Assembly: GCA_907163375.1 (NCBI GenBank) | Contig: CAJQUW010006804.1 | Span: 1 to 64,000, forward strand | From: Prostheceraeus crozeri | Taxonomy: Eukaryota > Platyhelminthes > Polycladida > Euryleptidae | Length of the DNA: 64,000 nucleotides | Direction of reading: 5' to 3' | Shown here: in pieces, positions 10,779-55,608 of the stretch | Layout of the letters: each line of letters opens with the position of its first letter | How positions within the stretch are numbered: position 1 is the stretch's first letter | Notes under the pieces: generated by a model | What the model saw: the letters and a program-made list of their open reading frames with translations, nothing else | Databases searched by the model: none | Told to the model about the DNA's origin: nothing | Made by a program: the position numbers and the translations under genes

Positions 10779-10856
10779 ATGCTTTAGGCTGTATACTACA
10801 TGATTCCAAACTTATACAAATTTCATTATCTTACAGTTAACGATAAAATCGCAGCC

Positions 10857-19099: not shown

Positions 19100-19129
19100 G
19101 ATGAAGTTCTTACTTTCATTTATTTCTAA

Positions 19130-29647: not shown

Positions 29648-30215
29648 TGTATTAAGTAAAACTCCACCACTGGATAGCGCAAGATGGCCGCCGTCGAAAA
29701 ATGGTCGCTGACGTCCCCCCCTCCCCGATAAAACGACAGAGTGTCGTGGTGGACTTGGGCGACCGCCAGGTTTTGACTTGAGGCTATAGTGTGTTATGAT
29801 TTTCGTGAAATCTGATGAATTTTGGGTTGAAAATGTGATGTTTCGAGTGGAAGCAATGCTCGGATGGGAAAACGGAGGCCAGATTCGGATTCAGCGTGAA
29901 ATTCTGCATCTGTATGGTGAATTTGAAAGCAATCGGAGAGAAAAAATTTCCGCTGACGTCCCCCCCGCACCGAACTTCCAATTTTGCTTCTAGTGGATGG
30001 ATTTTGTCGTGCAATAGCTCGTTTGAAAGCTAAGAGTGAGACAAACTCACTGAAAGATACGGCTTGTTCATATATGTCTTCGTTTAGATGTGAGACGCCA
30101 TTTAAGATTTTGGGAGATTGTCGAAAAACGACGGAGTTAGAATTTTGGACGTTTTGGGCTGTAGCTTCAAAACGAAGCATCGGATGGGAAAACGGATTTC
30201 AGATTTGGAATCAGC
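29648..30215 (+). repeat. Left terminal inverted repeat of B
   Basis: Matches 55045-55608 inverted from the terminus through GGAATCAGC. It contains the GCTGACGTCCCCC motif twice and a half-unit of the C-tract repeat. Confidence 0.9.
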
Positions 30216-34216: not shown

Positions 34217-34453
34217 TGTATTGACGCAAGGAAAAACAGCAATTCGTGTCAATAAGTAGGTCCTCTCTTCTCAATAGAACATGCTTATGTCATACTTGAT
34301 GTGATATGAGTTTCAGCTTTACTCACAGCTAATGGTCAATAGTGACGTCACATGCAGTTAGCACGGGAAGAGGGAAAGTCGCGATTAGATAATCACACAC
34401 AGACTTCCAATATGCGAACGGAACGGCAACGCACAACAGCTCAAACTCCCACA
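34217..34453 (-). repeat. 3' LTR
   Basis: 237 bp. The pol stop codon lies inside it (34441). A G-rich run (CCTGGGGGGCG on the minus strand) directly before it is a plausible polypurine primer. Confidence 0.9.
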
Positions 34454-37400
34454 CGCCCCCCAGGTCGACAGACCTCACACGCACACCACATCACTAAGTC
34501 ACCGAATCTATCCGGCGGCTTCCTCTCGCGAATGCTACGACGTAAAATACTGGCCTCATTATCCTCATCATCTTCACCGCTTAAACCGCTATCATCACTG
34601 TTTGAGTATGTAGGAAACGTATCTAACGTACACTCCTCACCAGGGACTAGCCTTAGGTGCGAAACGTGGCGTGCAACGCCATCTTCATTCAGAATAACAC
34701 TTACGCTAGAACAGATGCTAGTTATCCGATGGGGACCCGACCAAGTACTATCGCACCTCCCCGAAACACTCTTCAGGTAAACTCTGTCGCCAATACTGAA
34801 GGGATTTCTATCTAAATCCTCATACTTTGAACTTTCTTCCGAGTCAACCTTCTCAGGGCCTACCCGCTGGATGTGTTTACGCTCAGTAGTCACTCCTGGC
34901 TTCTTAGAGGTGGCTGCAAACATTAACTCGTAGGGGCTTTGTCGCTCACCGTCTCTACTATTATTTACCCAGAACGTTGCTTCTTCGATATCTCGGTTCG
35001 CTCGCTTGGCACATCTCTTAACAGTACGGTGGACTCGTTCTATAATTGCGTTGCCTTGCGGGCGATAAGCACTAGAAAAAACATGTTTAATCTCCCAATT
35101 ATCGAATAGCTTATAGATATCTCTACTTCTAAACACGGTACCGTTATCGGATAACACCGAACTAGGAGGACCGAACTCCGCTATAATTTGAGACAACTGC
35201 ATCGACACTTCAGATGAAGACTCATTGCGCAGCCGTCTCCAAATAGTGTACCGAGATGAAAGGTCGATTATAGTCAAATAAGGAATCCCATTATAGTGAG
35301 TTATATCAACTGCTATGTTCTGCCATATAACCGGACTAGTGCTGAAGGCGCCCTTATCCCAACTAAAATTCACCGCCGGATCTATCCTAGCACACCTGTC
35401 ACAACTACGGACGACTTTCTTTACTAGCCTCCTAGAAACCAAATTTCCTAGCTTCTGTTTGGCTAGATTCAAGGTTCGATCTACACCAAAGTGGCACCTT
35501 TCGTGGATCTTTTTAATTTCCATAAGATTGCGGTTTTGATTATCTGCGCCCTCTGCTACTGCTGCGGATAGAACATTTGCTGTGTCTGCTTGATCTCTCA
35601 TAACCTGTATCCATTTTTGGGGGACACGAGTGAGGCTGTCCGAAATATTTTCAGCAGATTTCACTAAGTGCGGTTCGACTTTGATTTTTTCGGTTTCTAT
35701 AATCTCTCTTAGAGTATCAAGTCGACGTTTGATAAGTCTTTCTGATAGAGCACGAGTCTTGACATTGTGCGTTTTATTGATAACTGCCGTCAACCATTTA
35801 TACACAGTGGATGAATCAGTCTTAATAATTATGTCTCTCTTACCCCAGCGTAGGGCCATATTAAGCCCTTTGATAGCTGCGTCTAACTCACTAATATTGA
35901 TATGTCCGGTGTCGTTATGTGGTCTCAACCACGAAGCGTCCTCTATTATCTTATCGTTAACTGTCAAGACAACACCTAGAGCTAGGTTGCTAGCATCAGC
36001 CCAAACAACAATAGGACTATTTTCAGGGACCGGCCAACTTCCCCTCACTGGATCACCATTAGTCGCTATCTGCCGCATCATCTGATTAATGAGATCCATA
36101 ACTGGCGTCGTGACACTATCATCCCACTTAAGCTGCGCTAACGAAGTCAAGCGTTGGAGGAAACTACAATAAACGCGCAACCACCCAGCAACTGGAAAGT
36201 GGCCTAACAGCTCTCCTATGATGCCATTAACTTGACGCCGAGAACACTGTCCTGAAGGTATGGTGGGAATAGTTTTATCTCTTTGCCATGACAAGTCATC
36301 GTTCACTCGGATGCCCAGTACACGAACTCCTGCAGGATTCCCTAAGCTAACGGGTTCCTTGGTCAGTAATCCCCACTTTGACAGGTGATTTTTGACATGA
36401 GAGACGCTTACTTTACTTTCGTCAATGAATAAGTCATCCACGTAGCTGGAGACAGATTCCTTCAATTCCTTTTCAAGTGATATCACTTTATCTACTACTG
36501 CTGTCATAATCTTTAGGAGCGACGGAGAGACCGAACCCCAACCTAGTGAGCAAGTATATTTCATTTTTCCATCTAACGGCCTGATGCACCCACAGTGACT
36601 CATGCACGTGTATTTGTAAATAAGCTTTACGTAAGTCTAAGAGGGAACAATTAGACCCTCGTTGCCGCAATTCCCGAAGCCTATCTGAACATAGAGGTAC
36701 TGAGCCCCCTGGAAAACTTTTAACGACCTGGTTCAGCATTCGATAATCTAAAACCGGGCGAATCTTTTTTTCATCTCCTTTATCTTGGAGCACAGCCATG
36801 GTAGGCAAAAAACTCTGAATTTCACCATGCTGAGTGGCGTCATACTTTACTAGTATCCCCTCGCTAACCCAAGAATTCATTTCGGCATCGAAGCCATTCC
36901 GATCGCAGGGTTTCACATAGTCAATAGGAGTTTTATGCAAATTATCGGTATTACCACCCTCGGTCCACTTCCAGCTAGCTACCCATCGACCTTCAACGAA
37001 GCTGGCGGTAAAGTCGCTATCACTAACGCTTAGGCTTTGCGGGGCCCAGTCAGCGTCGATACTGACGGCAGCTGTAACATGGGTGATGTTTGGGGAGAAC
37101 TTAACCGTAACTTCTCCCTCACAATAGCTGAGTTCGAGTCTCTTGTGAGATAGAATGTCTAAACCTAGCACAACATCGACATCAAGCGGCAATCGTTTAA
37201 CAACATGTGCTTTCACCGGGCCTAACTCAACGTCATCGTCCGTCACAACAGACCTGAGCATGACAGCACCACAAGTATGCAACTTGTCCTTATTCATCAG
37301 CTCTAAACACAGACTAGACTGCTCGCGACGTTTCCCCTTAGCCCTGTGCTCACCTAGCAAAGTAACGCTGCAGCCGGTATCAATCAGCACTCGCAGTTTG

Positions 37401-37624
37401 TGTCCATCGATCCACATCGTCCGGATTAATGCGCGGATGCGAGGGCAGCATGATCCGGCACATCCACCTCCGCACGTCCGTTTCCCGAAGCAGTAGACTT
37501 GGGGCAATGGGATCGAAGATGCCCAACTTCTCCACAGCTGTAGCAGATACTGTTGCAGTCCCGAAGATGTCCGATACGCTTGCAGCCGCTGCAGCGCGGT
37601 TTGTTTGTTCTCTGCGGATCCCAA
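34441..37624 (-). pseudogene. Pol of LTR retrotransposon (PR-RT-RH-IN) with a frame break
   Basis: Aspartic protease (LRVLIDTGCSVTLL) comes first, followed by reverse transcriptase (LDYRMLNQVV, LLDLRKAYLQI, then YVDDLFID). RNase H follows (VVWADASNLALG, ISELDAAIKGLNMAL, IKTDSS), then integrase with H-x3-H…C-x2-C zinc finger and DDE core (VDITHYNG, LSDNGTVF, IIERVHRTVK). The frame changes between the RT fingers and palm near 36500, so the first part (36488-37624) and second part (34441-36603) are not continuous. Because the LTRs are identical, this is either a very recent defect or a sequencing error. The C-terminus reads 13 bp into the LTR. Confidence 0.85.
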
Positions 37625-38190
37625 CGTTGGCGTGTTCCGACGCTGGTTGTTCCAGCTGCCGCAATGTCCAAAAGTTCCGATGGGTTCGCCAGAAGGGCTT
37701 TAGCACAGGAAATGATCTGGGACAGCTCCATCTTTTCTCCACATTGAACCTTGACTTGAGGTACAATTTGTTTTGGCAGTGCGTCCACGAGATGATACGA
37801 GACGAGTTGTTCCGGTACTGCGCTTCGGTTGCCGATCATGACGCCAAGAGCGCTCTTGATCTGATCCACGACCAGGTCTACTGACTCTCCCGGTATCAGC
37901 TTCGTTTCTTTCAAGTCTTGCCATGCGCGCAGCTTTGAGCGGCCAAACATTCGCATGAGTTCGGCCTTAATTGCGCTAAGGTCGGATTGCTTTGCAGGGG
38001 GCATCTGCTTCCATGTGGTGTAGGCCGCTCCCTCCAGGAAGATAGGTAAGATTTTCGCCAGTCGGTCATCGGTCTTCTCGTCCTTATTCTCAATGGTGAT
38101 TTCGGCTGTTAGCAGGAACTTATCCATCCAGAATTCAACATCTTCTCCTCTGCCGCCCGAGAATTTCTTCACCGCGTCGATTAGCTTCAT
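37426..38190 (-). CDS. Gag of LTR retrotransposon
   Basis: The ORF opens upstream inside the LTR, but the first ATG after the LTR is at 38190 (MKLIDAVKKFSGGRGEDVEF), giving 254 residues. The N-terminal two thirds resemble Gypsy-type capsid (retrotransposon gag: WMDKFLLTAEI, AAYTTWKQM, GRSKLRAW). The C-terminus has Cys motifs CSGCKRIGHLRDC and a canonical CCHC knuckle CYSCGEVGHLRSHC that would bind RNA. It overlaps the pol frame by ~200 bp, consistent with frameshifting between gag and pol. I could not identify a clear tRNA primer-binding site next to the LTR. Confidence 0.8.
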   Translation of the reverse strand: MKLIDAVKKFSGGRGEDVEFWMDKFLLTAEITIENKDEKTDDRLAKILPIFLEGAAYTTWKQMPPAKQSDLSAIKAELMRMFGRSKLRAWQDLKETKLIPGESVDLVVDQIKSALGVMIGNRSAVPEQLVSYHLVDALPKQIVPQVKVQCGEKMELSQIISCAKALLANPSELLDIAAAGTTSVGTRQRWDPQRTNKPRCSGCKRIGHLRDCNSICYSCGEVGHLRSHCPKSTASGNGRAEVDVPDHAALASAH

Positions 38191-38212
38191 TCCCGCCTTT
38201 GCCGTGATAGCT

Positions 38213-38449
38213 TGTATTGACGCAAGGAAAAACAGCAATTCGTGTCAATAAGTAGGTCCTCTCTTCTCAATAGAACATGCTTATGTCATACTTGATGTGA
38301 TATGAGTTTCAGCTTTACTCACAGCTAATGGTCAATAGTGACGTCACATGCAGTTAGCACGGGAAGAGGGAAAGTCGCGATTAGATAATCACACACAGAC
38401 TTCCAATATGCGAACGGAACGGCAACGCACAACAGCTCAAACTCCCACA
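38213..38449 (-). repeat. 5' LTR
   Basis: 237 bp, visually identical to the 3' LTR. Confidence 0.9.
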
Positions 38450-39692: not shown

Positions 39693-42600
39693 ATGGTAAG
39701 TTGAAGATTTCCTCTCTCATCTCCCTCAAACGTGTGGCTAATAGCATCTTCCTCAATTTCAGGCATCTACTTCATCACCAAAGCCCTCCCTTCTCGAGGA
39801 AAGTTTAGAGTTGTTGAGTGAAGGTAGGTTGTAACAATACACTGAGACTTGAACAGAGATGATAGAATGTTTCTCTTTCAGGTGATGTGAGTTCCACGTC
39901 AGAACTGTCGCGACATGGCAACGAGTGGGAATGTGCCGACTGCGGACATATGTTTACAAGGAAGCACAGTCTCCTTCGACACAACAAACAACGCGTGTGT
40001 CAACGCAAAGCGGCATCAATCTCCGGAGGTGAAGTTGATTCTGACGATGACATCTCCTTTCCTTGCGATTTGTGCCCTCTTTCTTTTGATAGTCACTTTC
40101 AGCGATCTTCGCACAGACTTCAACACACGCATGCAAATGATCACTACACCAACGGTGCCTCTACCATCTCCTTCATTAACGTTTCCCATAGTCATTTAGT
40201 ACGCGACTACTGCATGAAGTCCAATATTCAAATAGTAGATTTTCCTGAGTGGCTCCTTCAAAATTCTAACATTATCGAAGCGCTCTTCAACAATTTAGAC
40301 AATTTTAGAATGAAGGCGCTCATCTACCTTAAACTAAAATATATTAAAATAAATTTTCAAACGGGTCAAGTGACGGAGAGAATACAGTTTCATGTTCCTT
40401 CCTCTTCCGCAACCGAAGTTGTAGACTGCGAGTCTTGGTTAAATTTTCACATTCAATGTTTAAAATCAAAAATAGATAAATTCAATCAACGCGACAACGC
40501 TCTCATTTTTGATGGTGTGGACTCAGCCATATTCAAAATTTCCCTATTAGAAAGTAATGCAGCTCGAGGCACATTTAAACTACCAAAAACGTTGTATAAT
40601 AAGAAAGCTGTCATCAATGTCGATTGTAAATCACAGTGTTTCAAATATGCAGTCCTATCCATCCTTCACTATAATGATATCAACGCGAATCGAAATCATA
40701 CCTATAGCTATAGACAGTGGGAGGATGAACTAGACTTTGAAGGTTGTGATAGTAACAACATGAAAATCAAAGATGTAGAAACGTTCGAAAAACATAATCA
40801 GATTAAAATTGTAGTTCACGTGTGGGAGAAGGGGTTGAAGGGTGCCCGCTATAATTCACATTCAACTTGTTATGAACGAGTAGTCAACCTCTTATTAGTA
40901 AAACAAGATGATAGCGAGGAATGGCACTACTGTGGTATACCCAAAACCTCTCGCTTGTACACACACACTTGGGGCACTCTAAAAGAGGTGAACATTTTGT
41001 ATGCGACCGCTGCATCCGCTCCTTTTGGAGTAAAGATAAATTTGAAACTCACTATGAATGGTGGAAGCGAGGTAAATTACAAATGGAACGCATGCCCAAA
41101 GATAAAATATTTTCACATAGGGATAATGGTGACGAATTAAGTCCCCTGCGTGTCATTTACGCAGACATAGAATGCTACATTGATGATATCATCCACAAGC
41201 CAGCAGCCATATCCTGCTATGAAGTATGGCATGACCACTTTAGGAATAGACAAAACAAAATGCATACTTGGCAAGGTGAAGATTGCATTTCAAAATTTCT
41301 AGAATTTCTCGATAGAGCTGCCAAATTTCAACAATCATATGATTCCCAATTGCAGCGTAAGTCGCTACATATGTCAGATGAAGACAAAAATTTGAAAGTT
41401 GCACATCGTGCCCTAAATGTCATAAAACGTTTGATAACGATAAAATTAAGAAAGTGCGTGATCATGATCACATCACTGGTAAATTTAGAAACGCACTCTG
41501 CTCCAAATGTAACTTTTCACTTAGGTTGAGACGTCGTGTACTACCCGTCATTTTTCATAACTTTAAGGGCTATGACAGTCATATGCTCATAAAAGGAGGG
41601 TTGAGCCAGATGAAATCGTGGCAGTTTAATGTAATAGCGCAAACGAGAGAAAAATTCATGGCAATGACAGCAAAAGTACCAGTAGATAAAACTAAAGAAA
41701 ATAAGACAGTCTTCTTCGAAATAAAATTTTTAGATTCATTCCAATTCATGTCAGCGTCACTAGCTTCTCTCGTTCATAATCTCAAGTTTCTTCCCCATAG
41801 TCAAACTTTGAAGAAACACTATCCAAACTTAACGGATGAAATAATCACTCGCAAAGGAGTCTTTTCCTATGCGTATTTTAGCTGAATGTCTAAACTAAAT
41901 GAAACAACCCTTCCTTCCATTCACAAATTCCAAAACGATTTGACGGGTCAAGATTGACCAGTAGAGGACTATGAACATGCTCAAGACGCATGGTTAAAAT
42001 TTGATTGTAAAACGTTTGGCGATTATATGATCGCTTACTTAGAATTAGATGTCATTTTGCTGGCTGATGTCTTTCAGGAATTTCGACGAGTGGCATTCGA
42101 AGAAGACAAATTAGATCCTGTCCACTTTGTCAGTCTACCAGCCATGTCCTTTAAATCAGCCTTTAAAATGACTGGTGAGACCATCCATCTCTTACAAGAC
42201 CCCGAGATGTATAACATATTTGAGCGCGGAATACGCGGTGGTCTCACATTTGTGAATAAACATATCATAAAATCTAAAACAGTAGGTAATGATCATATCC
42301 ACCTAAAATACTATGACCAAAATAATTTATATGGCAGTTCACTGTCCAAACCACTACCTCATTCCGAGTTTAGTTGGTTAAATCAAGATGAGCTTGCGTA
42401 TTACTCCAACCCTTCAAACATTCTGAAGATTCCAGATGAAGGTGATTGGGGATATTATTTTGAAGTGGATTTGATTTATCCAAATAGTATCAAAAATAAA
42501 ACTGCTGATTTCCCACTCGCACCTGAATCTGGTGAAGTGACTGAAGATATGTTTTCACCATTCATGTCACAATTTCATAATAACTTAAGAGAGTGTGGAC

Positions 42601-43487
42601 AGCCAAGATACAAACCATGTCGCAAACTTTAACTCACCCAATATGATAAGAAAAATTATCTCGTGCACTTCTGCATACTAAAGTTCTATTTAGAAATGGG
42701 CATGCTTCTAAAGTCAGTTCACCGCATTATCAAATTTAGACAGAAAGCCTTCCTCAAACCCTACATAGATAGTAACAGTCAAAAACGTGCACTCGCCCAA
42801 AATAATTTTGAAAAGGATTTTTATAAATATAAGAATAACAGTCTTTTTGGAAAGACCATGGAGGATGTTAGAAAACGTATGAACTACAAACTAGTCATTG
42901 ATGAACAAAAATATCAAAAATTGACCTCATCACCTCTTTTCATTGATAGAGACATCATCGATGAGGATCTTGTAGGTGTTAAAATGATAAAATCAGAAGT
43001 TGAGTTGTGCAAACCCATCTATATTGGGCAAGCCGTTTTAGATTATTCCAAGCTTGAAATGTATCAACACTTCTACAAAATATTAAAACCATGCCCTCTC
43101 GTAAAAGAGGTTCGCTTGCTGGGTGGTGATACAAATAGTTTCTTTTTAGGAATTACCACTCAAACAGATCTAAATTTTAATGAAGTAGGTAAGTCATTAG
43201 AAAAATATTTCGACACATCTAACTACAATCCCACTCATCCACTCTATTCCATACAGAATAAAGCCAAACTTGGTTGTTTTAAGGATGAAACAGCAGGAAA
43301 GGAAATAGATGAAATGATTCTCCTCCGTCCTAAAATGTATTCCATGAAATTAAAAGAATGTGCAGATAGTATTAAGCGTGCTAAAGGTATATCAAAATTC
43401 ATTATATATCAAAATTTTCAAATTTTTACTCAATTGACATTGAATGTCATCACCCAGTTTCAGAACAACGCGATGATTTTCAATTGA
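39693..43487 (+). pseudogene. Protein-primed-type DNA polymerase B (Polinton POLB), spliced at 5' end, multiply broken
   Basis: Exon 1 ends with the ATG (39693-39695), exon 2 is 39763-39823 and exon 3 starts at 39882; all donors and acceptors are canonical and keep frame. Two C2H2-like fingers follow (CADCGHMFTRKHSLLRH, CDLCPLSFDSHFQRSSH). Exo I (YADIE) is near 41164. A CPKCH…RDHDH motif (HNH/endonuclease VII-like) precedes Exo II (FHNFKGYDSHM). Exo III is YLELDVILLADVF, and motif A is YYDQNNLYG near 42315. Motif B is KNNSLFGKTMED near 42825 and motif C GGDTNS near 43131, with Asn where the second catalytic Asp belongs. Frame shifts lie near 40980 and 41390; in-frame stops are at 41883, 41955 and 42630. 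The C-terminus seems shortened where it meets the convergent gene at 43392. It cannot make an active polymerase. Confidence 0.9.
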
Positions 43488-44593
43488 AAACGAAATGTGG
43501 TGTGTCTTTACATCACATTTACTTTTCATCACATGCTTCAACTTCTGTTGTATATAAGGATTTACTACATGAATGAAGCTTTCAACTGTATGATATAGAC
43601 GCGGCATTATATTGATAGCAACTTTAGATTCTTCATAAGACTGGTAAATTTTCTTGATGCGATCACCATAGATGTCCACCCACCATTCATCATTAACTGA
43701 ATCAGCTTTAGTGTGATATTCATGAGAAGCATATACCACACCGCTTCCAATAATAGGTGTATGATGTCTTACAATATGACGTAAGGTTGGAGAGAAATAA
43801 ACTGTAAGTTTGTCATTATATTTCTGAATAACCAACTTATTTTTGTCCGCCATAATTTTCTCTCCATACTTCTTACCCACAGTCTCATTCCATCTTTTTA
43901 CTAACTCAATAAGTGATAAAGGTTGAACACCACGCATTTTCAAAATAATGCGTTCTTCACATTCTACAACATCTTCATCAAATATTTTAAATTTATAATG
44001 AAATTTGTTGATTCGATTTGAATAAACTTTTTTAACATTTGCAGTAGCAATTGACGTTACATGTAGTCCATGACCAAAACCGAGATGTGGATAGAATTCA
44101 TTATCCAACCTCAGTTTAAGACCTTTAGTAAAAGAATGAAAGCGAAGGAACTGTCTCCCACTCCAATGATAGATAGTAAACTCATAAACTTTCTGATCCT
44201 TATTCTTCATGATGGAAGTATTTCCACTATTGAATGCCTTAATAATTTTCTCATTCCCAAATGGACCATAATAATCTGATTTTATCTGAATCCATTCATA
44301 GTTCCACTTTCCATCTGACGTTAATTGTATGGGAACTGGAATGCATTATTCATCGTTATTCCATCATGGGTGCGAGGAGTCAATATCATTTCCTCCACAT
44401 CATTCACATTCTGAATATTGCTATCATAGCAAATAATAGAAACGCCAACCTCCCATTCTCCTTCTAAATGTAGTGGACGATTTAATTCTACTCGATAGTC
44501 TGATGTTTTATTTTTGGGAAATTTATTCATAGAAGCATTGCTGGGTAAGTAGATTAGAAACGAGTCCTTATTTTCACTTTCCATATTATTCAC
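43392..44593 (-). pseudogene. Polinton structural-type protein, copy 2 ('LPSN…WEVGV' family), frameshifted and truncated
   Basis: The N-terminus reads SFLIYLPSNASMNKFPKNKT and LEGEWEVGVSI, a pattern I know from a widespread uncharacterised Polinton-associated protein family of animals. The first 90 codons end at a stop at 44321, and the homologous region continues in another frame (43392-44210 and just upstream), so a frame break lies near 44320. The conserved C-terminal domain of the family is missing, and the 3' end runs into polymerase sequence, suggesting a deletion joint near 43400-43490. It is a paralogue of 44622-46015. A virion role is inference from the family's company. Confidence 0.65.
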
Positions 44594-44621
44594 ATTGGAG
44601 AAAAATATGAATGCGTTTGCA

Positions 44622-46015
44622 TTAATTCTTCATTCGAAAATGGGGTGTGATACTTGTCACAGCGTCTTTATGAAAAGGAATCAACGCGCCAGCATCGTCA
44701 TATATGGCAATATCAATCTGTGTTATATAGTTTGATTTCAAGTTTGTATAATGCACTTTCTTAAAAGTATGCTCCAATATAATGCTACAGTTTTTTGGTT
44801 GGTATGGTATCATTGCTAAAAGTGGAATTTCAGCATCTCCCACACGCACATCTTCACCAATATTGGAATATAACTGAAAATAGTTAATACGACGGGATAA
44901 TGATAGATGCGCGCTAGCTTTTGTTACAGTACCACTTTTAAACGTATTTTGATCAAAGCCCAAAATGTTCTTTAGGGTATTGTCCATGATCAGCTCAATA
45001 TTTTTCCCGCTAACACGAAGAGATGGCACACCTTCTTTTTCAGAAAACGAGATATTTTCATCTTGAACCACTTCATTCAAATAATCTATTGCCATCTTAA
45101 CTGAAGTGATCATGCGAGGTGCCAACACTCTTGTTCTATGTGAGATTCCACTCAAAGGCTCTACACACTTTCTGTATAAAGATACCGACCATTCTGTTTC
45201 AACTTGATTTGACCCATCACATTTCAAATAGCGCATATCAAATTTTCCATTAACGGCTGCAGAGCGATGTCGCAAGAACTGATGAAAATCTTCTGAACAA
45301 ACTAATACTAGATCATCATCATCATCTAATTTACTAATGACGATTTGATCCGTTGATTTCGTATAAGTCAATGTTGCCACTTGTTTACCATCAACTCGAA
45401 GGAGAAAATTAAATTTCTTCAATAATGTTTCAGGAGTCATGTTTGTCTTTCTTGGCTTAATCACAATCTTCTTCACCAATGTCTCTTCATTTTTCGGAAT
45501 AAGATCCACATAAAAAGCTTTCTCTTTGTAAATCAAATCTTTACAACCACTTGGGTGGTAATTAACGTTATAATTATCATAGCTTGTTGAGGCACTAGCG
45601 AGGTAACCTAAATCATTTCTTAAACTTGGACTTAAACCAACAATCCAATCTTTCTCAACTACATGATGTACATAATTATGATCATCATTGTGCGGAGAAA
45701 AGTGGATGATGTGTCTACCCTCTTTATTCAGGAAATCATATACAAACTTTTTACATGATAAGAGATCTTTCTTTGGCCACTGTGGAATGTAAACTCGACA
45801 ACCTTCTTCACACTGATAAGCCTCTGTACGCCTCACATTGATCGTCATCACTTCATGATTAAAAGTATAGACACAGTTTCTATGAACAAGTTGAGTGACA
45901 CCCACTTTCCATTTAGCTGTTGTGTATGATCAATGGGTGTAGAAAAGAGTGCGGCTCGATTATTACCAAATCTCTTTGTGGCCGCATTGCTAAGAAAAAT
46001 ATGATAAAACGACAT
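44622..46015 (-). pseudogene. Polinton structural-type protein, copy 1, with N-terminal frame break
   Basis: Starts at ATG 46015 (MSFYHIFLSNAATKRFGNN). The first ~36 codons are in a different frame from the main 427-codon body (44622-45905), with the break near 45907 at the family's Gly-x-Trp-x-Val-Gly motif. The C-terminus (RINYFQLYSNIG, DAEIPLLAMIPY, KKVHYTNL, IDIAIYDDAGALIPF, ITPHFRMKN) matches the conserved end of this Polinton family. It is the upstream member of a tandem pair with 43392-44593 and lies on the same strand as the capsid genes. Probable minor virion or attachment component, by inference. Confidence 0.65.
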
Positions 46016-46050: not shown

Positions 46051-46407
46051 ATGAAGACTTGGATTTTGGACTCTCTACAATATATCAGAGTTGATCGTGA
46101 TGGGAACGTACAGTTCAAAAATTCTCATGGTCATACATCAAGAGGTATTACATTAACATGACGACAATTTGTCAACCTCAATGATATCATGAGGGATTTG
46201 GAATATTTTGAAACATTAAGATTCATCTCCTTGGGTGATCAAGTTTGGCTTCAACATTACAGAAATGAAATTCAAATCTGCCATTCTCATTCCACAAACT
46301 GTTTCTCATTTCGCAAATACAATTGGGAGAAGTATAGAAGATACGTACATCGCTCCATCATGACATTTATTCGTCGTGAGTTCATCGCCCTACTATGCAA
46401 ATCTTAA
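46051..46407 (+). pseudogene. PC4-like protein, paralogue 1, with in-frame TGA
   Basis: 118-codon frame from ATG 46051 with a TGA at 46159-46161. It is related to the next gene along its length (ILDSLQ…, DRDGNVQFK, WEKYRRYVHRSI). The pattern is two successive units of several β strands and one helix (…RGITLT, then FVNLNDIMRDLEYF; …CFSFRKYNWEKYRRYVHRSI). This resembles the PC4/p15 single-stranded-DNA-binding fold, whose helix starts after a G-I-S-L-type strand. The similarity is by pattern only. Confidence 0.45.
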
Positions 46408-46429
46408 TCAAACATGACTACTACGCAGC

Positions 46430-47080
46430 ATGAGTTGGAAATTAGATTCCCTACAACGTATTGAAACGGATCATGATCGAAACGTCTATTTCAAAGATTC
46501 AACTGGAAATGTGAGAAGAGAGTTTGCTTTATCTTATCGTCATTTTCAATCTCTACATCATATCATGAAGGATTTGAAATACTTCTATATGAAAAGACAT
46601 TCACGTATTGGAAATCGAATCTGGTTGCGCGTCAACAATCGGCGAATTCAACTCTATCATTCCCAACTTCATACTAACTTCACATTTCATCAAGGTAGTT
46701 GGGAAAAGTATAAAAGGAAGGTACATCGCTCAATTTACTCATTTTTTCATCATGAAGCGCCATCGCTACACCATCGTCAACATTCTCCGTCGCTTCAGAC
46801 TCTACAACAAAATCGATCTCACAACATTACACCAACACCTTCCAAACAGCAAGTATTACCCGGGCCGACCTCAAATGTTAGTGGTGAAGATGAAAAATTC
46901 ACGGAACCTTCAACTCTTCCCAAATGGAACTGTACAGATTCTCGGCGCCCTTTCTCATTCATCGGCGCAGTCAATGCGCTTAGAGCTACAGAGACTACTA
47001 CGTCGGATATGGAAGAGGGAGAGGTGTGTGATGTTGAATCTGACTGTGGACAATATGGTGATCTCTACTCAATTGAGTGA
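46430..47080 (+). CDS. PC4-like protein, paralogue 2, with C-terminal tail overlapping the TBP-like gene
   Basis: 216 codons, starting 22 bp after paralogue 1 stops. Residues 1-105 align with paralogue 1 (about 40% identity by eye) and show the same doubled strand-helix pattern (EFALSYRHFQSLHHIMKDL; NFTFHQGSWEKYKRKVHRS). After that the frame is low-complexity (Ser/Pro/Gln), then acidic (DMEEGEVCDVESDCGQ). It overlaps the TBP-like frame by 329 bp, so the tail may be overprinted or just a chance open frame. If PC4-like, it would bind single-stranded DNA in replication or transcription; not proven. Confidence 0.5.
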   Translation: MSWKLDSLQRIETDHDRNVYFKDSTGNVRREFALSYRHFQSLHHIMKDLKYFYMKRHSRIGNRIWLRVNNRRIQLYHSQLHTNFTFHQGSWEKYKRKVHRSIYSFFHHEAPSLHHRQHSPSLQTLQQNRSHNITPTPSKQQVLPGPTSNVSGEDEKFTEPSTLPKWNCTDSRRPFSFIGAVNALRATETTTSDMEEGEVCDVESDCGQYGDLYSIE

Positions 47081-47297
47081 CAGTGTATCATTTTTGAAGA
47101 TTCGTACCAGCAGTTACAATTTGTGTTATGAACCCGAACTTTTTCCTGCAGCTCTCATTAGTTGTTGGTTACCTGTGCATGTTGCAATCTTTCATAATAG
47201 TAAAGTGATCATTACTGGACTAAAATCTCATGTACAGGCAAATGTGATCCTAGACTATCTCATCGAGTATGTACGTACCCAGCGGATTGTAAAATAA
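46752..47297 (+). CDS. TATA-binding protein (TBP)-like protein
   Basis: 181 codons, which is the size of the TBP saddle core. It has two direct repeats, ~6-86 and ~92-174. Repeat 1 matches TBP in order: NI…, KIDLTTLHQHLPNSKYYPGR, LQLFPNGTVQILGA. Repeat 2 carries the hallmark YEPELFPAALI (126-136), then VAIFHNSKVIITGLKS (145-160). Of the four DNA-kinking Phe of TBP, three positions are Phe here (F56, F131, F147) and the first repeat's other position is Pro40. The start is the ATG at 46752; an upstream ATG would add 48 residues that look like read-through of the PC4-like gene. AATAAA (47293-47298) overlaps the stop. The likely role is promoter recognition on the element's own TATA boxes. The family assignment is by recognised motifs, not a database search. 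Confidence 0.82.
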   Translation: MKRHRYTIVNILRRFRLYNKIDLTTLHQHLPNSKYYPGRPQMLVVKMKNSRNLQLFPNGTVQILGALSHSSAQSMRLELQRLLRRIWKRERCVMLNLTVDNMVISTQLSDSVSFLKIRTSSYNLCYEPELFPAALISCWLPVHVAIFHNSKVIITGLKSHVQANVILDYLIEYVRTQRIVK

Positions 47298-47325
47298 AAA
47301 ACAATTTTTCCAACATGTTTTTATT
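47293..47325. terminator. Back-to-back polyadenylation signals
   Basis: AATAAA on the plus strand (47293-47298) overlaps the TBP-like stop. AATAAA on the minus strand (47320-47325) overlaps the protease stop. Two convergent transcripts end within ~30 bp, an economy typical of viral genomes. Confidence 0.65.
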
Positions 47326-47782
47326 TCAAATCATGATAGAACTTACAAATCATTTTTTCATTAGAGGATGGATTACATGAAAAGTTTTGAATAACAGATA
47401 CAAATCGAGATACATGTAAACGTTTTAAGATGAAGTGCAGTACAAAAGCACCACACGTTGATGAAAGTGGATGTTGTAGTATGCGTTCATTTCGCTGATA
47501 TTGACGCGTATGTTTTCTCAACCACTGCTGTGTTGGTATATTTGGAGGTTGAGCAAGAGAGTCAAATAGTTCACCACGTCGGTCTTCTCCAATAAAGATC
47601 GCTTTCCAATGCTCACCGCCTAAATTCTGCGAATGAGTGTTCAGCACAATAAAGATGGGATAGTGATTTACTGCAGGTGGTAAGGTATCGAGTGAATAGA
47701 CATTATCGAAAGCTTTCAACGTCGCTTCGTCTGCATTACGCTGCACTTTAGTTTTAATATCGTCAGCAGTCGACCAACTCAT
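47321..47782 (-). CDS. Adenain-type cysteine protease
   Basis: 153 residues. The catalytic order is that of adenovirus/Polinton and Ulp1-type proteases: His58 in GGEHWKAIFIG, Asp74 in GELFDSL, Gln103 in RILQHP, Cys110 in SSTCGAFVLHFIL. Full length, open, no breaks. It abuts the capsid gene (1-bp overlap) and ends at a shared polyadenylation region. In Polintons it is thought to mature the capsid and core proteins; the Gly-Gly-containing basic protein at 49062 and the pVI-like protein at 52167 are likely substrates. Confidence 0.85.
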   Translation of the reverse strand: MSWSTADDIKTKVQRNADEATLKAFDNVYSLDTLPPAVNHYPIFIVLNTHSQNLGGEHWKAIFIGEDRRGELFDSLAQPPNIPTQQWLRKHTRQYQRNERILQHPLSSTCGAFVLHFILKRLHVSRFVSVIQNFSCNPSSNEKMICKFYHDLK

Positions 47783-49059
47783 TAACGATTATACTGAAGA
47801 ATCACGTCACGATACTTTGTAATTTCAATGTTTGAATCGAAGACTGCATAAATTAATACATTGATCGTCTCAGGTAGCGTTCTTTTGAACGTCAAATCCA
47901 AACGAATATTATGAGGCACGTTCGCTTGACGATGGGGTGCACTAATATCGCTGTCAGCAGTCAAATCAAATGCATAAATAGTATATCCACTCTTAAACTT
48001 TTTCATAGTGAGTCCGTTGGTGTCATCCGTATTGTAAAAACCAAAGACATCCATAAAATCAACATAACTGCGCATAAATTGATCCGCAGCAAAATCTGGT
48101 TTGTAGGGTGGACCAGGACGACTCACACCATTTACACGTAAAGCAATTTCACTTAACTGATTGTGTTTAAAATTGAAAGGATTCTTCTTTATATTACCAT
48201 TAAATGCATAATTTTCAACCATTGCCACCATGAGGAGCTTCGGTGCTTCCGATAGAAAGAGGCCATCTTTCATGAAACTCTTTTGATCTTTCGGAATTGT
48301 AAAGTTGAGAAGCTTTGTATGCTGAACGGAGTAAATGGCATTTTTGCGGTTAAGACCTTCAGCATGTCCTCTAATGACACTTGGATTCGGTACTGCTCGA
48401 CGAATGTAAAGTGCAATATCTTCCACATGAATTCTAAAATTGTCAACTTTAGCAAGTGCATTCAGCGCAATTTCAGGCTTATTCAATGTCAGCTTGAGTC
48501 GCATGCTGGTATTACAGAGTAAAAACTTTGACTGTCTAAAGAAGTCTAAATTCAGCGGACCATATAGCTGACATACTTTACTATCTTTAATCATAGCAGA
48601 TCGCTTTACAAAGCCACTGTTTGTTTCAACATCAAATTTTCCTGCTTCATCTCTGTACCATCCCATGGCTTCCATATGACTTTTTTGTGCTGCTGGATGA
48701 AACTGTGATACATGATTGAAATATGATTTATAGGGATAATCGCTTTGACCACCTTCCACCTGCTGCTCTCCAATCGTTAGAGAAACATCACGAAGTAATG
48801 TAGTCAATGGTAAATTGTTCAGTCCAACTTAATGTGTATCGTCAATAGCAGTTCCATCTGCTTGCTGAATTCTAAACCTCAAATCAACCATCGCATAACT
48901 CAAATCTATGTAGTCATCACTACCACCAGGAATAACAAATTCAATGGGGCCAGCATTCTCAGCTGTTCGAGGATGATAATCTACAATACTTGAACTAAGA
49001 ATATCTGTCTGTATGGCTTGTTGATCAAACAAACAAAAACCGGAAGTTTTACACTCCAT
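47782..49059 (-). pseudogene. Major capsid protein (F54H12.2-like family), one in-frame stop
   Basis: ~425-codon frame. The N-terminal 76 residues carry the family signature (IEFVIPGGSDDYIDLSYAMVDL). A TAA at 48829-48831 interrupts it, and the same frame continues without other breaks to 47782 (VSLTIGEQQV, YPYKSYF, then IALYIRRAVPNPSVIRGHAE, LRVNGVSRPGPPYKPDF, FDLTADSDI). I know this metazoan family from Polinton annotations, where it is regarded as the double-jelly-roll capsid protein; that fold is inferred here. A single interruption in a long, otherwise clean gene indicates recent inactivation. Confidence 0.85.
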
Positions 49060-49061
49060 GA

Positions 49062-49517
49062 TTAGAAGTTATGGCAGCGTCGTCGTTTAGCACCTGATGA
49101 ATGATTAGAGCCTCTGCGACGTTTGCGTGAATGCCTTTTGACTGAAGATTGCACTTTACCAGCTCCGCGATGTTTCCTCCTTCCTTTATTCATTCGTTTA
49201 GGTGATTTCTTTCCTTGAGTAACACCAGCAAAGGTCTGCTTCAATGTTTTTAAACCACGTTCCTTCCCACGATTCAACAAACTGCTCTTAAAACTTCTAC
49301 CTCTGGAAAGATCACTAGCAACATCACCAGCAAAGCCAACGGCATTACTTAAAACATTTCGTTTTAAAGATCTTCCGACATTGGATATGAGAGGTGCTAC
49401 AACAGATTTCAGTGCACCAAGTATGCTACCTCCACGTTGGCGGCGAGCGCCGATGTAAATTTGTCCTCCACCACTTACATAGGAGGGTCGTGAATAAAAT
49501 GAGGCAGTTGGATTCAT
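49062..49517 (-). CDS. Basic virion core protein (pX/pVII-like)
   Basis: 151 residues, very rich in Arg/Lys/Ser/Gly. The N-terminus has VSGGGQIYIGARRQRGGSILG, which resembles adenain cleavage contexts and hydrophobic membrane-active segments. The middle has an amphipathic GALKSVVAPLISNVGRSLKRN. The C-terminus is a histone-like basic tail (KRHSRKRRRGSN, AKRRR). It sits 2 bp from the capsid gene. Likely packages DNA inside the particle; the role is inferred by composition and position. Confidence 0.6.
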   Translation of the reverse strand: MNPTASFYSRPSYVSGGGQIYIGARRQRGGSILGALKSVVAPLISNVGRSLKRNVLSNAVGFAGDVASDLSRGRSFKSSLLNRGKERGLKTLKQTFAGVTQGKKSPKRMNKGRRKHRGAGKVQSSVKRHSRKRRRGSNHSSGAKRRRCHNF

Positions 49518-49652
49518 AGCTCAAACCCTAAACATTGTTAGTTACAACTTTGCATGAATCACTGTCGATCACTTAGATGAAAGATGTCGGCACGACGCAT
49601 CCAAGAGTTCATCCTTGAAGGATAATCAGTCCATTTAACAAGACACCATTCT

Positions 49653-50781
49653 TCACCTTGCCGTTTTTTTACATCGAATGATTTTCTCTACCAAATATGT
49701 TTCACTTTCAGTGACTACCTCAATCTCATCGCGGTAAAAGCTACCCTCAATTTCTTCATTATCGTAATCTTTCAACTTGTAGGTGGTCGGAGAGTCTTTT
49801 TGATTAATCCTTGATACTGTAAATACCTCCTCTGTCCAATTCGGAAGGTACCCATTAGCAAAAACACTTTTCACTTTTGAGATACGAACTTTATCACCAA
49901 TTTTCACATCACTTTTCACATGAGTGCGTTTACGTTGGAATGATTCGCGCACTTTATCTACATTGTCAGCATTTACATCTACTGGTCTGAGTCCAATAGA
50001 ACGATGAACAGAGCGATTGTAGGCATGGAGTGTATCTTGTAGAACCTTTGTCCAATTCTGTGTCAAGTTGGCAGTAAAATGTCGCCACAAGCGAATTTTT
50101 TAATGTGCGATTAAAACGTTCAACGAGTGCAGCTTTATAAGCACTCTTTACACTAAACAACTCAATGTCATGCCTCTCAAATAATCTTCTCACATGCTGA
50201 TTTTCAAACTCTTTTCCTTGATCACTCTGAATTCTTTTTGGAATGCGGCCTTCTCGATAAATTGTTTGGAATGCTTTTGCTACTCCTTTCCCTTCTTTAG
50301 TTTTTAAAGGTTGAGCCCACGCATAACGCGAGAAAATATCAATGACGGTTAAAATAAAATTATTGCCCGAGTTATGTTTTGAAATGGAGGCGACATCACA
50401 CAAATCTGCTTGCCACTGTTCATCAATGTCATGAACAATATATTGGCTGGTACGGTACTTCTTTTTCGCTTGTTTGTGGAGTGTATAGGTAGCCTGACCC
50501 TTTAACCATCGTTTCACTTGTGATTGTGGAAGACCACTCGCTTTTGACAATTTCTTGATCGATGCAAATCCTGCTGGATGTTTTACATCATAATAGATTG
50601 ACTTCAAACGCTCAGTCGATGACGACTGACTCTTTTTCCTCCTTCTCATCTTTTTGCTTTCTTGCCTTTGTACATTTCCAACAACTACAGCATTTAGCTT
50701 TAGCGGTTTTGCGATCGTGTTCACATTGCTTAGGGGTTTCATTGTGAGAGCTGGCGCAGCAAGTGCAAGTGACAACGACAT
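49653..50781 (-). pseudogene. Polinton integrase (retroviral-like DDE) with a frame break
   Basis: The N-terminal helical region matches Polinton integrases (SIYYDVKHPAGFASIKKLSKA, VKRWLKGQATYTLHK). The catalytic triad is intact: Asp126 (WQADLCDV), Asp187 (IQSDQGKEF) and Glu221 (LVERFNRTL), with a 33-residue gap between the last two. Just after this the frame breaks near 50090. The C-terminal part (49653-50090) has the KIGDKVRISKVKSVFANGYLPNW…SH3/chromo-like domain of the family. The first ~50 codons look like a shadow of the overlapping Cys-rich frame, so the true start may be near 50620. Confidence 0.85.
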
Positions 50782-50828: not shown

Positions 50829-51521
50829 TTAATAGTCTGAGAACATATATTTCTTGGGAGGAGCTGTTTTACGTTTTCCTTTTACTAGTTTTAGTAGTGG
50901 CGTAGATCTACGTCGAGTTCTTCCTCTTGTTTGCTTAGTGAGTGTTGGAGGGGATGTAGCAGGTGACGTCTTAAACCAATTTGTTGGCATTTTCATCGTC
51001 TGAAGCATTGGAGCAGTAGCCACTGTTGAATCAAGTTCTTTCAATGTCTCATTATTCAAAGCAAATTTTGGCACATTATGCTTTTTCAATAGTTTAAGAA
51101 AGTATGTCCAACCAGGTGGAACATAGCCCGGACGGCGCTTTCTACGTGTCGCATACTGAATCAAGTCTTCATAACGTGAAGCATCAATCACTTTATTTTC
51201 ATCTGTAATGATTTCTCCTCTATCATTTACATTGAGGTGGGGTTCAATACTGTTGAAAAGAGATATGGCATGTACACGAGATGCTAAAGGTGTAGCAGTC
51301 GACACAGAGTCACGCATCTTATTCTTCAAATTTTTCAATTGTTCAACAGTTTCCGATTGTAATAATACAGCACGATGTGGATCTTTGATGTGAACATTTT
51401 GCTGATAATCTAATTCTTTCCTATACATTTGATTTGCAAGAGGTTGCTTTACTTGCTGCATGGCAGTCAATTGTACATATTCATCCTGAGGAATAACAAT
51501 CATGCGAGAATAAGAGCTCAT
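50829..51521 (-). CDS. Polinton gene of unknown function (230 aa)
   Basis: Open. The N-terminal half is helical (IPQDEYVQLTAMQQ, VEQLKNLKNKMRD). The middle reads YEDLIQYATRRKRRPGYVPPGWTYFLKLLKKHNVPKF and the C-terminus is basic (RGRTRRRSTPLLKLVKGKRK). I have the impression that this layout occurs next to the ATPase in other Polintons, but I assign no function. Its ATG overlaps the ATPase stop as ATGA, so the two are probably translated from linked messages. Possibly a virion or scaffold protein. Confidence 0.6.
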   Translation of the reverse strand: MSSYSRMIVIPQDEYVQLTAMQQVKQPLANQMYRKELDYQQNVHIKDPHRAVLLQSETVEQLKNLKNKMRDSVSTATPLASRVHAISLFNSIEPHLNVNDRGEIITDENKVIDASRYEDLIQYATRRKRRPGYVPPGWTYFLKLLKKHNVPKFALNNETLKELDSTVATAPMLQTMKMPTNWFKTSPATSPPTLTKQTRGRTRRRSTPLLKLVKGKRKTAPPKKYMFSDY

Positions 51522-52183
51522 AGTTTGTAGATAATCATGGGAGTTTTCAAAATATCACTTCGAAATCTAAATTCTTCCGGACACTCTTGCGTAAAGTCAA
51601 TGAATAAGTAACCGTGTGGTTTTTCAGTAGCTGCTTGAAAAATTTCAATTAAGGCTTTTGATCCTCTGGGTGCAACTTGTCGCGCTAAAATTTCAAATTG
51701 ACTTTTATCTCGCGGATTCTTGAAAATAACATAATAGTGTGTATTCAGGTTTCGTGTACGAGCTTCTTTTCCATCAGGAAACAAATTTTGTGTGATATAG
51801 ATGATAAAGCACCTTTTATGATGTGCTGCGCGAGTGAACATATCTGTAACATCTTTTGAATTCTTACTTTCCTTTAATAGATCATCCAATACAACAACAT
51901 CATTAGACTGAAGTTTATCCACTGGAATAATTCCTTCATGTCGAATAAAGTTGCGACTTTGCAATTCCTGAAACAGCGACGGTTCATAAATACCATAACA
52001 CCAAATCACTCGATTGATAGGTTCCTTAAACAACTCCCTTCTTTTATCCAATAAATTCAGCGTGAAAACAGTTTTACCTGCATGAGATGGACCTGATACA
52101 GTCAGAACTTTATCACATTGAAGTCTGAAATCCATTATAATACTTTGAGATTCAACATTTGCATAATTAACGTCTAGAGCCAA
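51518..52183 (-). CDS. Genome-packaging ATPase (FtsK/HerA type)
   Basis: 221 residues. Walker A is GPSHAGKT (31-38), Walker B is VVVLDD (96-101), and a polar sensor lies in YITQNLF (129-135). The size and motif spacing are those of Polinton/adintovirus ATPases of the A32/FtsK class. Open and complete. It overlaps the upstream pVI-like gene by 17 bp and the downstream 230-aa gene by 4 bp. Expected to drive DNA into the capsid. Confidence 0.85.
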   Translation of the reverse strand: MALDVNYANVESQSIIMDFRLQCDKVLTVSGPSHAGKTVFTLNLLDKRRELFKEPINRVIWCYGIYEPSLFQELQSRNFIRHEGIIPVDKLQSNDVVVLDDLLKESKNSKDVTDMFTRAAHHKRCFIIYITQNLFPDGKEARTRNLNTHYYVIFKNPRDKSQFEILARQVAPRGSKALIEIFQAATEKPHGYLFIDFTQECPEEFRFRSDILKTPMIIYKL

Positions 52184-52523
52184 AGATATTACCCAATACG
52201 TTGCCCACGATAGGAGCTAGCATCGGTAGTAACGCTGGAAGGAAACCGCCCTTTTGTGTTAGAGTTTCCCTCTTTCTTTGAAGGGTGACTTTAGGATTGG
52301 AGATGAAACGCAATTTTGTAGCATATCGCTTAAGTAACTTTCGTTGTTTTGGTGCTAATTTCTTCGTCCTCAACTTTCTCACATGAGAAATAATTTCACG
52401 AATGAATTTATCGTTAGCATGTCGTATAGCATTGTATCGCTGATTTGCTTTCATTCGTCGGAGAGCTTCAATGGCTGAAGAAAACTTTTGACTTTTACGT
52501 TTCGTCATATTACGTTTCGCCAT
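52167..52523 (-). CDS. pVI-like small virion protein
   Basis: 118 residues. The N-terminal ~90 are strongly basic and helical (KRNMTKRKSQKFSS, RKLRTKKLAPKQRKLLKRY). Then comes a Gly-Gly-containing junction (LTQKGGF) and a hydrophobic, Pro-containing C-terminus (LPALLPMLAPIVGNVLGNIFG). This layout is common in Polinton small virion proteins. It recalls membrane-active peptides released by the viral protease. Function inferred. Confidence 0.6.
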   Translation of the reverse strand: MAKRNMTKRKSQKFSSAIEALRRMKANQRYNAIRHANDKFIREIISHVRKLRTKKLAPKQRKLLKRYATKLRFISNPKVTLQRKRETLTQKGGFLPALLPMLAPIVGNVLGNIFGSRR

Positions 52524-52574
52524 TTTCCGTGTTAGTCTTTGCTAAAACCTATCTTTACCACATTTGCATAGGTA

Positions 52575-52910: not shown

Positions 52911-53289
52911 TTTATAGAAATCGCTTCAATCACTAGACTGCTGCCATGATGGTTAAATGCGTTAAGACGTTCAGCAATTTTTATCATATGTCTTTTAAAA
53001 AATTCTTTGGGGTGATCTACCACTTCCATTGAATAAGAAGAAAATGGAAAGAGCGACTTTCCACCTCTTCCTTTCCAAAATGACTAAACTTAATTTTCGC
53101 AACTAATCGCGCCATGACAATGCTATCAGAGAATGTATTCATTAACTCTAGAAATAGAGTGCTAGCATCCTCGATCACGGCTTCGATGTCGGTCTCATCT
53201 TTATGAAAATTTATCACATAATCTTGAACAGCTCCTTTTAAACTTTGTCTATGAAAATGTAATGTTCCGCAGTCATTTGAGAAAGACAT
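52911..53289 (-). pseudogene. Polinton accessory protein, frameshifted
   Basis: The first ~80 codons (53289 down; MSFSNDCGTLHFHRQSLKGA, FLELMNTFSDSIVMARLVAKI) are followed by a frame break near 53050. A second open stretch then runs to ~52911 (SYSMEVVDHPKEFFKRHMIK, LNAFNHHGSSLVIEAISI). The parts together resemble the ~100-residue region that precedes the exonuclease in many Polinton polymerases (a 'residues…F…GSG…I' helical domain), here as a stand-alone gene. Family link is tentative. Confidence 0.45.
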
Positions 53290-55044: not shown

Positions 55045-55608
55045 GCTGATTCCAAATCTGAAATCCGTTTTCCCATCCGATGCTTCGTTTTGAAGCTACA
55101 GCCCAAAACGTCCAAAATTCTAACTCTGTCGTTTTTCGACAATCTCCCAAAATCTTAAATGGCGTCTCACATCTAAAGGAAGACAGATATGAACAAGCCG
55201 TTTCTTTCAGTGAGTTTCACTCTTAGCTTTCAAACGAGCTATTGCACGACAAAATCCATCCACTAGAAGCAAAATTGGAAGTTCGGTGCGGGGGGGACGT
55301 CAGCGGAAATTTTTTCTCTCCGATTGCTTTCAAATTCACCATACAGATGCAGAATCTCAGGCTGAATCCGAATCTGGCCTCCGTTTTCCCATCCGAGCAT
55401 TGCTTCCACTCGAAACATCACATTTTCAACCCAAAATTCATCAGATTTCACGAAAATCATAACACACTATAGCCTCAAGTCAAAACCTGGCGGTCGCCCA
55501 AGTCCACCACGACACTCTGTCGTTTTATCGGGGAGGGGGGGACGTCAGCGACCATTTTTCGACGGCGGCCATCTTGCGCTATCCAGTGGTGGAGTTTTAC
55601 TTACTACT
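55045..55608 (-). repeat. Right terminal inverted repeat of B
   Basis: Inverted match of 29648-30215. It contains two G-run plus ACGTCAGC motifs (55294, 55537) and ends …GGAGTTTTACTTACTACT. Confidence 0.9.

Follow-up and report, generated by a model that had tools for sequence, protein, structure and literature searches.

The locus studied here raises the question of whether an animal Polinton can carry a TATA-binding protein (TBP) gene of its own and, if so, what such a gene would do for the element. The DNA analyzed (herein referred to as the window) is a 64,000-nucleotide stretch of the polyclad flatworm Prostheceraeus crozeri, for which a first-pass annotation had proposed that a Polinton encodes a full-length TBP homologue.

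A Polinton Encodes a Two-Lobed TBP Homologue

The 181-codon ORF to which this proposal referred starts with ATG, is open throughout and contains both of the motifs named for it (YEPELFP and LFPNGTVQILGA). The TBP profile match that had been suggested as a check is significant over both repeats, TBP being the sole Pfam family found in the ORF (PF00352; E 1.3e-20, in two stretches, with 73.4 bits where the cut-off is 22.9). A sequence search of the PDB returned 35 matches, every one a TBP or TBP fusion (E 3.7e-13 to 3.9e-7), and a profile of 62 relatives matched a Methanocaldococcus-type TBP in the PDB at 9.9e-25 (90 bits) and eukaryotic TBPs with 65–79 bits. Judged from these matches, the ORF is a real, full-length, two-lobed TBP homologue and no chance resemblance.

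The surrounding element (~25.9 kb, from ~29655 to ~55601; table 1) is a Polinton, as it combines a type B DNA polymerase (PolB), an rve integrase and terminal inverted repeats; the DNA_pol_B_2 and rve matches both exceed the Pfam cut-off and lie in one element. The inverted arms (29649-30055 and 55201-55607) are ~400 nt long and 98% identical. Polintons (Mavericks) are flanked by a 6-bp target duplication; none was recognized at the ends of this decayed copy, whose exact end position is uncertain, and we claim none because the flanking hexamers (GTATTA and TACTAC) differ. Decay is evident in the polymerase frame, which lies in four pieces, and in the interrupted frames of the presumed capsid protein and companion ORF a. 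The integrase of subfamily B (defined below; locus L010) comprises rve plus a Chromo domain, and the ORF of the presumed packaging ATPase is 61–65% identical in subfamilies B and D. The capsid and penton names are our assumption from motifs and gene order: the presumed penton ORFs drew no assignment in Pfam or PHROGs, and the presumed capsid protein, searched in its subfamily B version, drew no match in the PDB or PHROGs. Nested within the Polinton at 34441-38238 is a fragmented LTR-retroelement polyprotein with rve, H2C2, RNase H and zinc-knuckle pieces.

Table 1. Features of the TBP-bearing Polinton in the window (positions are those of the window)
Feature	Position	Strand	Evidence and remarks
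Left terminal inverted repeat, begins AGTAAAACTCC (end placed to within ~6 bases)	29655..30055	+	Repeat arms and end reading
Type B DNA polymerase, four frame pieces	39950..43487	+	DNA_pol_B_2 E 1.2e-8 (42027-42632); pieces match longer frames in sister loci
Presumed penton-like protein, three ORFs	43392-44210, 44321-44584, 44622-45848	-	Motifs
ATGCAAA box	44616..44622	-	-38 of ORF 44321-44584; unchanged in L128
Companion ORF a	46051..46407	+	~43% identical to companion ORF b in sister copies; stop interrupts window frame
ATGCAAA box	46395..46401	+	-35 of companion ORF b; unchanged in L128
Companion ORF b, 216 aa	46430..47080	+	First ~110 residues are the conserved part; overlaps TBP ORF in another frame
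TATAAAAG	46709..46716	+	-43 of TBP ATG; also Tyr-Lys codons of companion ORF b
TBP homologue, two lobes, 181 aa	46752..47297	+	Pfam TBP E 1.3e-20; PDB TBPs E 3.7e-13; profile of 62 relatives against PDB 9.9e-25
Ulp1/adenain-like cysteine protease	47321..47782	-	Peptidase_C48 E 4.5e-4, 20.6 bits, just below cut-off 20.7
Presumed major capsid protein	47782..49059	-	Motifs; window frame interrupted, uninterrupted in sister copies
ATGCAAA box	49549..49555	-	-38 of ORF 49062-49517; unchanged in L128
rve integrase	49966..50781	-	rve E 2e-10; truncated relative to subfamily B
Presumed packaging ATPase	51518..52135	-	Weak: AAA_14 E 0.0027, Pox_A32 E 0.033, PHROG ATPase E 0.0057
ATGCAAA box	52158..52164	-	-29 of ATPase ORF
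Adenovirus protein X-like core protein	52167..52523	-	Adeno_PX E 8.5e-4, below cut-off
ATGCAAA box	52563..52569	-	-46 of core-protein ORF
ATGCAA	53315..53320	-	-31 of ORF 53017-53289
Right terminal inverted repeat, begins AGTAAAACTCC inverted	55201..55601	-	Repeat arms and end reading

The TBP gene sits, as had been described, between a so-called PC4-like ORF and the protease. The PC4 label itself is not supported: five members of the companion ORF family found no PC4 in Pfam, nor did their profile in the PDB. The two companion ORFs (46051-46757 as far as they precede the TBP gene) are a related pair in tandem directly before TBP and belong to no recognized family. No TFIIB match was found among the 21 element ORFs scanned, which fits the use of host TFIIB.

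Several Polinton Subfamilies Carry a TBP Gene

The genome assembly (2.05 Gb in 14,165 contigs) holds at least 150 TBP matches above the cut-off (150 of 10,982 candidates scored), four of which belong to host genes: two exons of an ordinary TBP (contig C9306) and two matches to a TBP-like gene (C3829) that we take to be of the TRF2/TBPL1 type; these two genes mark the host as a metazoan. Stretches of 8–10 kb were read around the 20 best-scoring non-host matches. With three lower-ranked loci, the reading covers 23 of the 146 non-host matches, and Polinton genes lie beside TBP in every case (20/20 and 3/3). Together with the Pfam and PDB matches, these 23 loci bear out the claim of a Polinton-encoded, full-length TBP.

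By TBP identity to the window, the loci fall into subfamilies A (window-like, ~95%, nine loci), A' (L128, 81%, one locus), B (41–43%, three loci), C (42–46%, nine loci) and D (L014, 40%, one locus, with one stop in TBP). Subfamilies A, B and D share a gene order of capsid, protease and then TBP on the opposite strand, and 14 of the 20 best-scoring loci gave a match to the companion ORF. TBP is thus a regular constituent of several Polinton subfamilies here, ~40% identical between them.

Within the stretches read, none of the nine subfamily C loci matches a capsid, a protease, an ATPase or an integrase, although very diverged capsids could escape such a search. One C element (C6670, ~507453-523774, comprising L031, L022 and L030) spans ~16.3 kb between 968-bp inverted repeats (96.6%) and contains sequence related to the left end of the window element (72–92% in pieces); read in three pieces, it yielded nothing recognizable beyond PolB, the companion ORF, TBP and homologues of the ORFs at 54107 and 53017. 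As subfamily C retains TBP where no capsid is recognizable, either the protein serves more than capsid genes or subfamily C borrows capsids and keeps a shared switch.

Relatives Elsewhere and the Origin of the Family

A search with the single protein recovered 61 relatives, 31–77% identical over the alignment and all with a TBP domain, and a profile search recovered 1,150 proteins at E 1e-3 among 4,640 candidates; we consider the best 120 of these 1,150, and the remainder may include cellular TBPs. The relatives derive from ENA, Logan, JGI and a few NCBI contigs, and from their similarity we infer that they are Polinton TBPs. Queries with TBP, the ATPase and the presumed capsid protein found no relatives in IMG/VR, and the TBP query found none in phage records. 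One JGI/ENA protein (P0101) is almost identical to a subfamily C TBP (L022:4657-5193), so DNA of the host or a near relative seems to be present in a JGI metagenome.

The phylogeny comprised 51 rows: 28 of the family, 12 archaeal, 6 viral from IMG/VR and 5 eukaryotic including the host. Gene context is known for three of the family rows (the window, L010 and L022); L062 (a mis-framed archaeal sequence), L014, L043 and L044 were left out. All 28 family rows form one clan (branch support 100/100) apart from the sampled cellular and viral TBPs, on a stem of 4.8 changes per column, and the host TBP pairs with human TBP (100/97). The first-pass annotation had offered host capture or an ancient link to larger viruses as origins. 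Of these, recent acquisition from the host is at odds with the best tree, because the host TBP groups with its human counterpart and the Polinton family is a separate clan. Older origins fare alike in this tree: none of three sister placements of the family was rejected by approximately unbiased (AU) tests, whether beside eukaryotic TBPs (p 0.55), the two metazoan TBPs (p 0.49) or five IMG/VR viral TBPs (p 0.37), although in the best tree the IMG/VR viral TBPs and the family form no single clade. Eukaryotic, metazoan and viral sister relationships are indistinguishable by this test.

Selection Maintains the TBP Gene

Segregating sites within subfamilies show that the Polinton TBP is under purifying selection. 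Nine subfamily A copies carry 18 synonymous and 27 non-synonymous sites and 1 stop (p 0.006); the corresponding figures for six of the eight subfamily C copies, two with shorter matches being left out, are 21, 39 and 2 (p 0.011). Stops occur in one of the nine A copies and two of the six C copies counted, and also in L014. Summed pairwise dN/dS of TBP is 0.39 in subfamily A and 0.41 in subfamily C (eight copies). The values of nine more ORFs of subfamily A range from 0.23 to 0.44, while another yielded no alignment; in all these figures pairs are non-independent and some changes post-date insertion.

One Lobe Is Largely Conserved and Groove Residues of the Other Are Replaced

Residues were counted in yeast TBP numbering across the family (n=143, of which 140 are proteins from the window or databases and three are loci). 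The C-lobe retains most of its DNA contacts (N159 in 143, V161 in 143, F190 in 142, F207 in 143 and T215 in 141) together with the glutamates that we take to be TFIIB-contact positions (E186 in 139 and E188 in 143); its departures are an alignment gap at L205 in 143/143, which makes the hairpin one residue shorter, and V213, which is mostly Ile. In the N-lobe, F116 stays in all 143 and N69 in 119 (with 23 gaps), and four groove residues are almost invariantly replaced: F99 by Pro (137), L114 by Gln (139), V122 by Gln (142) and T124 by Leu or Met (136). F99, L114 and T124 are kept in all 12 archaeal and 5 eukaryotic TBP rows, and the 8 viral rows from IMG/VR keep them in 7, 5 and 6 cases, respectively.

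Positions 99, 116, 190 and 207 are presumably the four phenylalanines that kink DNA. The annotation was correct that Phe occupies three of them (116, 190 and 207, with Pro at 99 relative to yeast TBP), a state that marks the family as a variant and leaves the profile match unaffected. In TBP–TATA structures the lobes divide the box between them, the C-lobe covering its 5' half and the N-lobe its 3' half; the altered N-lobe thus predicts a changed 3' half-site. Taken together, the sequences suggest that the Polinton-encoded protein is a heavily altered relative of cellular TBP and that the element may bring its own gene switch.

A Candidate Promoter Box Upstream of Element ORFs

We counted 6-mers at -62 to -18 of ORF starts in TBP-bearing Polintons and compared the counts with dinucleotide shuffles (n=2000); the lists of starts include polymerase fragments, which are not true starts. 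The top 6-mer in subfamily A is ATGCAA (6/23 start regions, equalled in 19/2000 shuffles) and in subfamily B, counted separately, AAGCAA (7/13, 0/2000 shuffles). When A, B and D are pooled, the single top 6-mer count is reached in 21/2000 shuffles, and A[AT]GCAA, a pattern chosen after looking, occurs in 14/44 start regions against a shuffled mean of 2.0 and a maximum of 7. These AWGCAA sites lie 29–47 nt upstream of the ORF starts (table 1), and several fall within the coding sequence of a neighboring gene. In L128, the three boxes within the fetched stretch keep the ATGCAAA core in surrounding regions that are 56–79% identical. The box is absent at 17/23 subfamily A starts, including those of TBP, protease, capsid and integrase, and is present at 1/8 subfamily D starts; no [AT]GCAAA was seen in the 80 nt preceding the listed ORFs of subfamily C, though C keeps TBP. 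The subfamily A form, ATGCAA, resembles an octamer/POU site.

Canonical TATA boxes were considered as the target and rejected. Strong TATA boxes had been cited at 9884, 12342, 12868, 30993, 33582, 39571 and 54983; the first three of these lie outside the element, and TATAWAWR occurs in the window 26 times against 27.4 expected. The sequence TATAAAAG before TBP also encodes Tyr-Lys of companion ORF b, so its conservation shows no promoter; several subfamily C copies have TATAAA at the same distance before TBP.

Proposed Function and Alternatives

We hypothesize that the ORF is the Polinton's own re-specified core-promoter TBP, which would recruit host TFIIB and RNA polymerase II (Pol II) to element promoters, and we give this proposal an even chance of being right. 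From the gene, its context, the selection acting on it, its residues and the box statistics, we infer the following scheme of binding, specificity, recruitment and timing. TBP would be made first, perhaps through host TBP acting at TATAAAAG before the TBP gene; the protein would then bind element promoters through its canonical C-lobe and altered N-lobe, the latter shifting DNA preference to an element-specific box, for which AWGCAA is the best candidate, and the kept glutamates would recruit host TFIIB and hence host Pol II. More tentatively, animal Polintons may possess an orthogonal core-promoter system, in which a TBP re-specified in its N-lobe (its groove bearing a Pro and two Gln that hardly vary) reads, with host TFIIB and Pol II, an element-specific half-TATA box (ATGCAA in A, AAGCAA in B); such a system would be kept even by capsid-less elements and maybe shared with capsid-bearing relatives.

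Another possibility, which we regard as somewhat unlikely, is that the element's TBP recognizes ordinary TATA-like sequence, maybe less strictly, and just secures a supply of TBP, AWGCAA being the box of another factor. The kept C-lobe and F116 would suit such a protein, as would TATAAAAG 43 nt before the TBP ATG in subfamily A, its TATAAA counterpart in several C copies and the 17 of 23 A starts that have no AWGCAA-type box; however, the almost invariant replacement of four N-lobe groove residues argues against it, TATA-type sites are present at chance number in the window, and the TATAAA before TBP lies within companion-ORF codons.

It is improbable, in our estimation, that the protein acts against the host, competing for TFIIB or promoters and so damping host transcription without selecting element promoters. 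Such a role would agree with the persistence of TBP in the capsid-less elements of subfamily C and with the conservation of the TFIIB glutamates but not of the N-lobe positions (the K133 and K138 region) that we take to contact host regulators. Damping of the host, however, needs no conserved altered groove, and the altered positions are almost invariant (n=143); moreover, the box recurs upstream of element ORFs. We rate just as low a role as a DNA-bending factor in replication or packaging rather than in transcription, with retention beside PolB in capsid-less elements pointing to replication. The gene content of subfamily C, where nothing was recognized except PolB, the companion ORF, TBP and two small ORF families, is what this role would lead one to expect, but E186 and E188 are kept in 139/143 and 143/143 sequences, and these glutamates are not known to serve anything other than TFIIB contact. 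Finally, the idea that the gene is a host TBP of recent capture, carried as a decaying passenger, to which the stops in one of nine A copies, two of six C copies and L014 might be thought to point, is highly improbable and largely refuted by the tree, residue and selection results: the gene is under purifying selection, is kept across subfamilies at ~40% identity, belongs to a clan apart from host TBP and has close relatives in other sequencing sources.

Relation to Known Systems

Compared with cellular TBP (the eukaryotic TFIID subunit and archaeal TBP; PF00352), the Polinton protein shares the two lobes, the center Asn, F116, F190 and F207 and the TFIIB-contact glutamates; it differs in being Polinton-borne, in its groove (F99 to Pro, L114 to Gln, V122 to Gln, T124 to Leu/Met) and in lacking one second-lobe stirrup residue found in eukaryotic TBPs. 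With Polintons/Mavericks and adintoviruses as described, the window element shares PolB, an rve integrase, a probable Ulp1-type protease and terminal inverted repeats, to which it adds a TBP gene and the companion ORFs.

TBPs on the virus side are already known. The available excerpts describe TBP homologues in mirusviruses (PMC10132985, PMC12768974) and TATA-binding proteins in elements of putative mirusvirus origin (PMC10675990); mirusvirus TBP is likewise a virus-side homologue, in viruses much larger than a Polinton. The TBPs of IMG/VR contigs (L035-L046) are also virus-side, keep F99 in 7/8 and T124 in 6/8 and stand apart from the Polinton family in the tree. For large dsDNA viruses, the excerpted parts of one study treat the C-lobe acidic positions that contact TFIIB and report that the TFIIB-contact positions of viral TBPs are variable and that nearly all of these viruses encode a TFIIB (PMC7221094); these TBPs (see also PMC11410667, likewise in excerpt) are virus-encoded as is that of the Polinton, which in contrast keeps the glutamates and shows no TFIIB match in 21 ORFs. 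A 2024 survey, as excerpted, counted three virus-TBP families and added four, all called large (PMC11410667). KSHV ORF24, the TBP mimic of beta- and gammaherpesviruses, is described in excerpt as acting at TATTWAA late promoters (PMC6541308), and as a virus factor that brings host Pol II to a modified TATA position it provides a working analogy only (PMC6541308); ORF24 is a mimic that binds Pol II itself, whereas the Polinton protein is a clear sequence homologue of TBP.

Within the Polinton/Maverick, adintovirus and viral-TBP literature available to us, we found no TBP gene in a Polinton, and none is mentioned in the excerpted portions of PMC10675990, PMC10132985, PMC12220804, PMC13037468, PMC11071308, PMC11071296, PMC10120064, PMC11640650, PMC8097293 and PMC10294476. 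As far as this literature goes, the Polinton as host group and the altered groove are new. Animal Polintons of ~26 kb with TBP as a regular gene would carry the range of virus-encoded TBPs beyond large dsDNA viruses; Polintons have themselves been proposed, in the part of the source available, as ancestral to many eukaryotic dsDNA viruses (PMC7805220). If our proposal is true, dependence on host Pol II does not prevent an element from supplying a promoter selector itself, and the family would offer naturally occurring TBP groove variants for testing how each lobe reads its half of the TATA box.

Other Features of the Genome and Window

The only COX1 match in the assembly (L034; C6227:14436-18782) is on a contig of 100 kb and has a COX2-like frame upstream of it. 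It is open under the non-vertebrate mitochondrial codes 4, 5, 9, 13 and 14, has 12 stops in the vertebrate code and is either a nuclear copy or a mitochondrial concatemer. Outside the Polinton, two long ORFs in the window (427 and 388 aa; 10800-12083 and 25426-26592) drew no convincing Pfam match and are inverted copies of one another (84% over 1283 nt). Positions 1-9692 are occupied by a tandem array with a period of ~587 bp and as many as 17 copies, of which many match exactly across 300 nt, and positions 13977-23187 by a large inverted array of short repeats (spacings of 29, 63 and 92 nt), the arms of which, for example 14262-15319 and 22130-23187, are 97% complementary.
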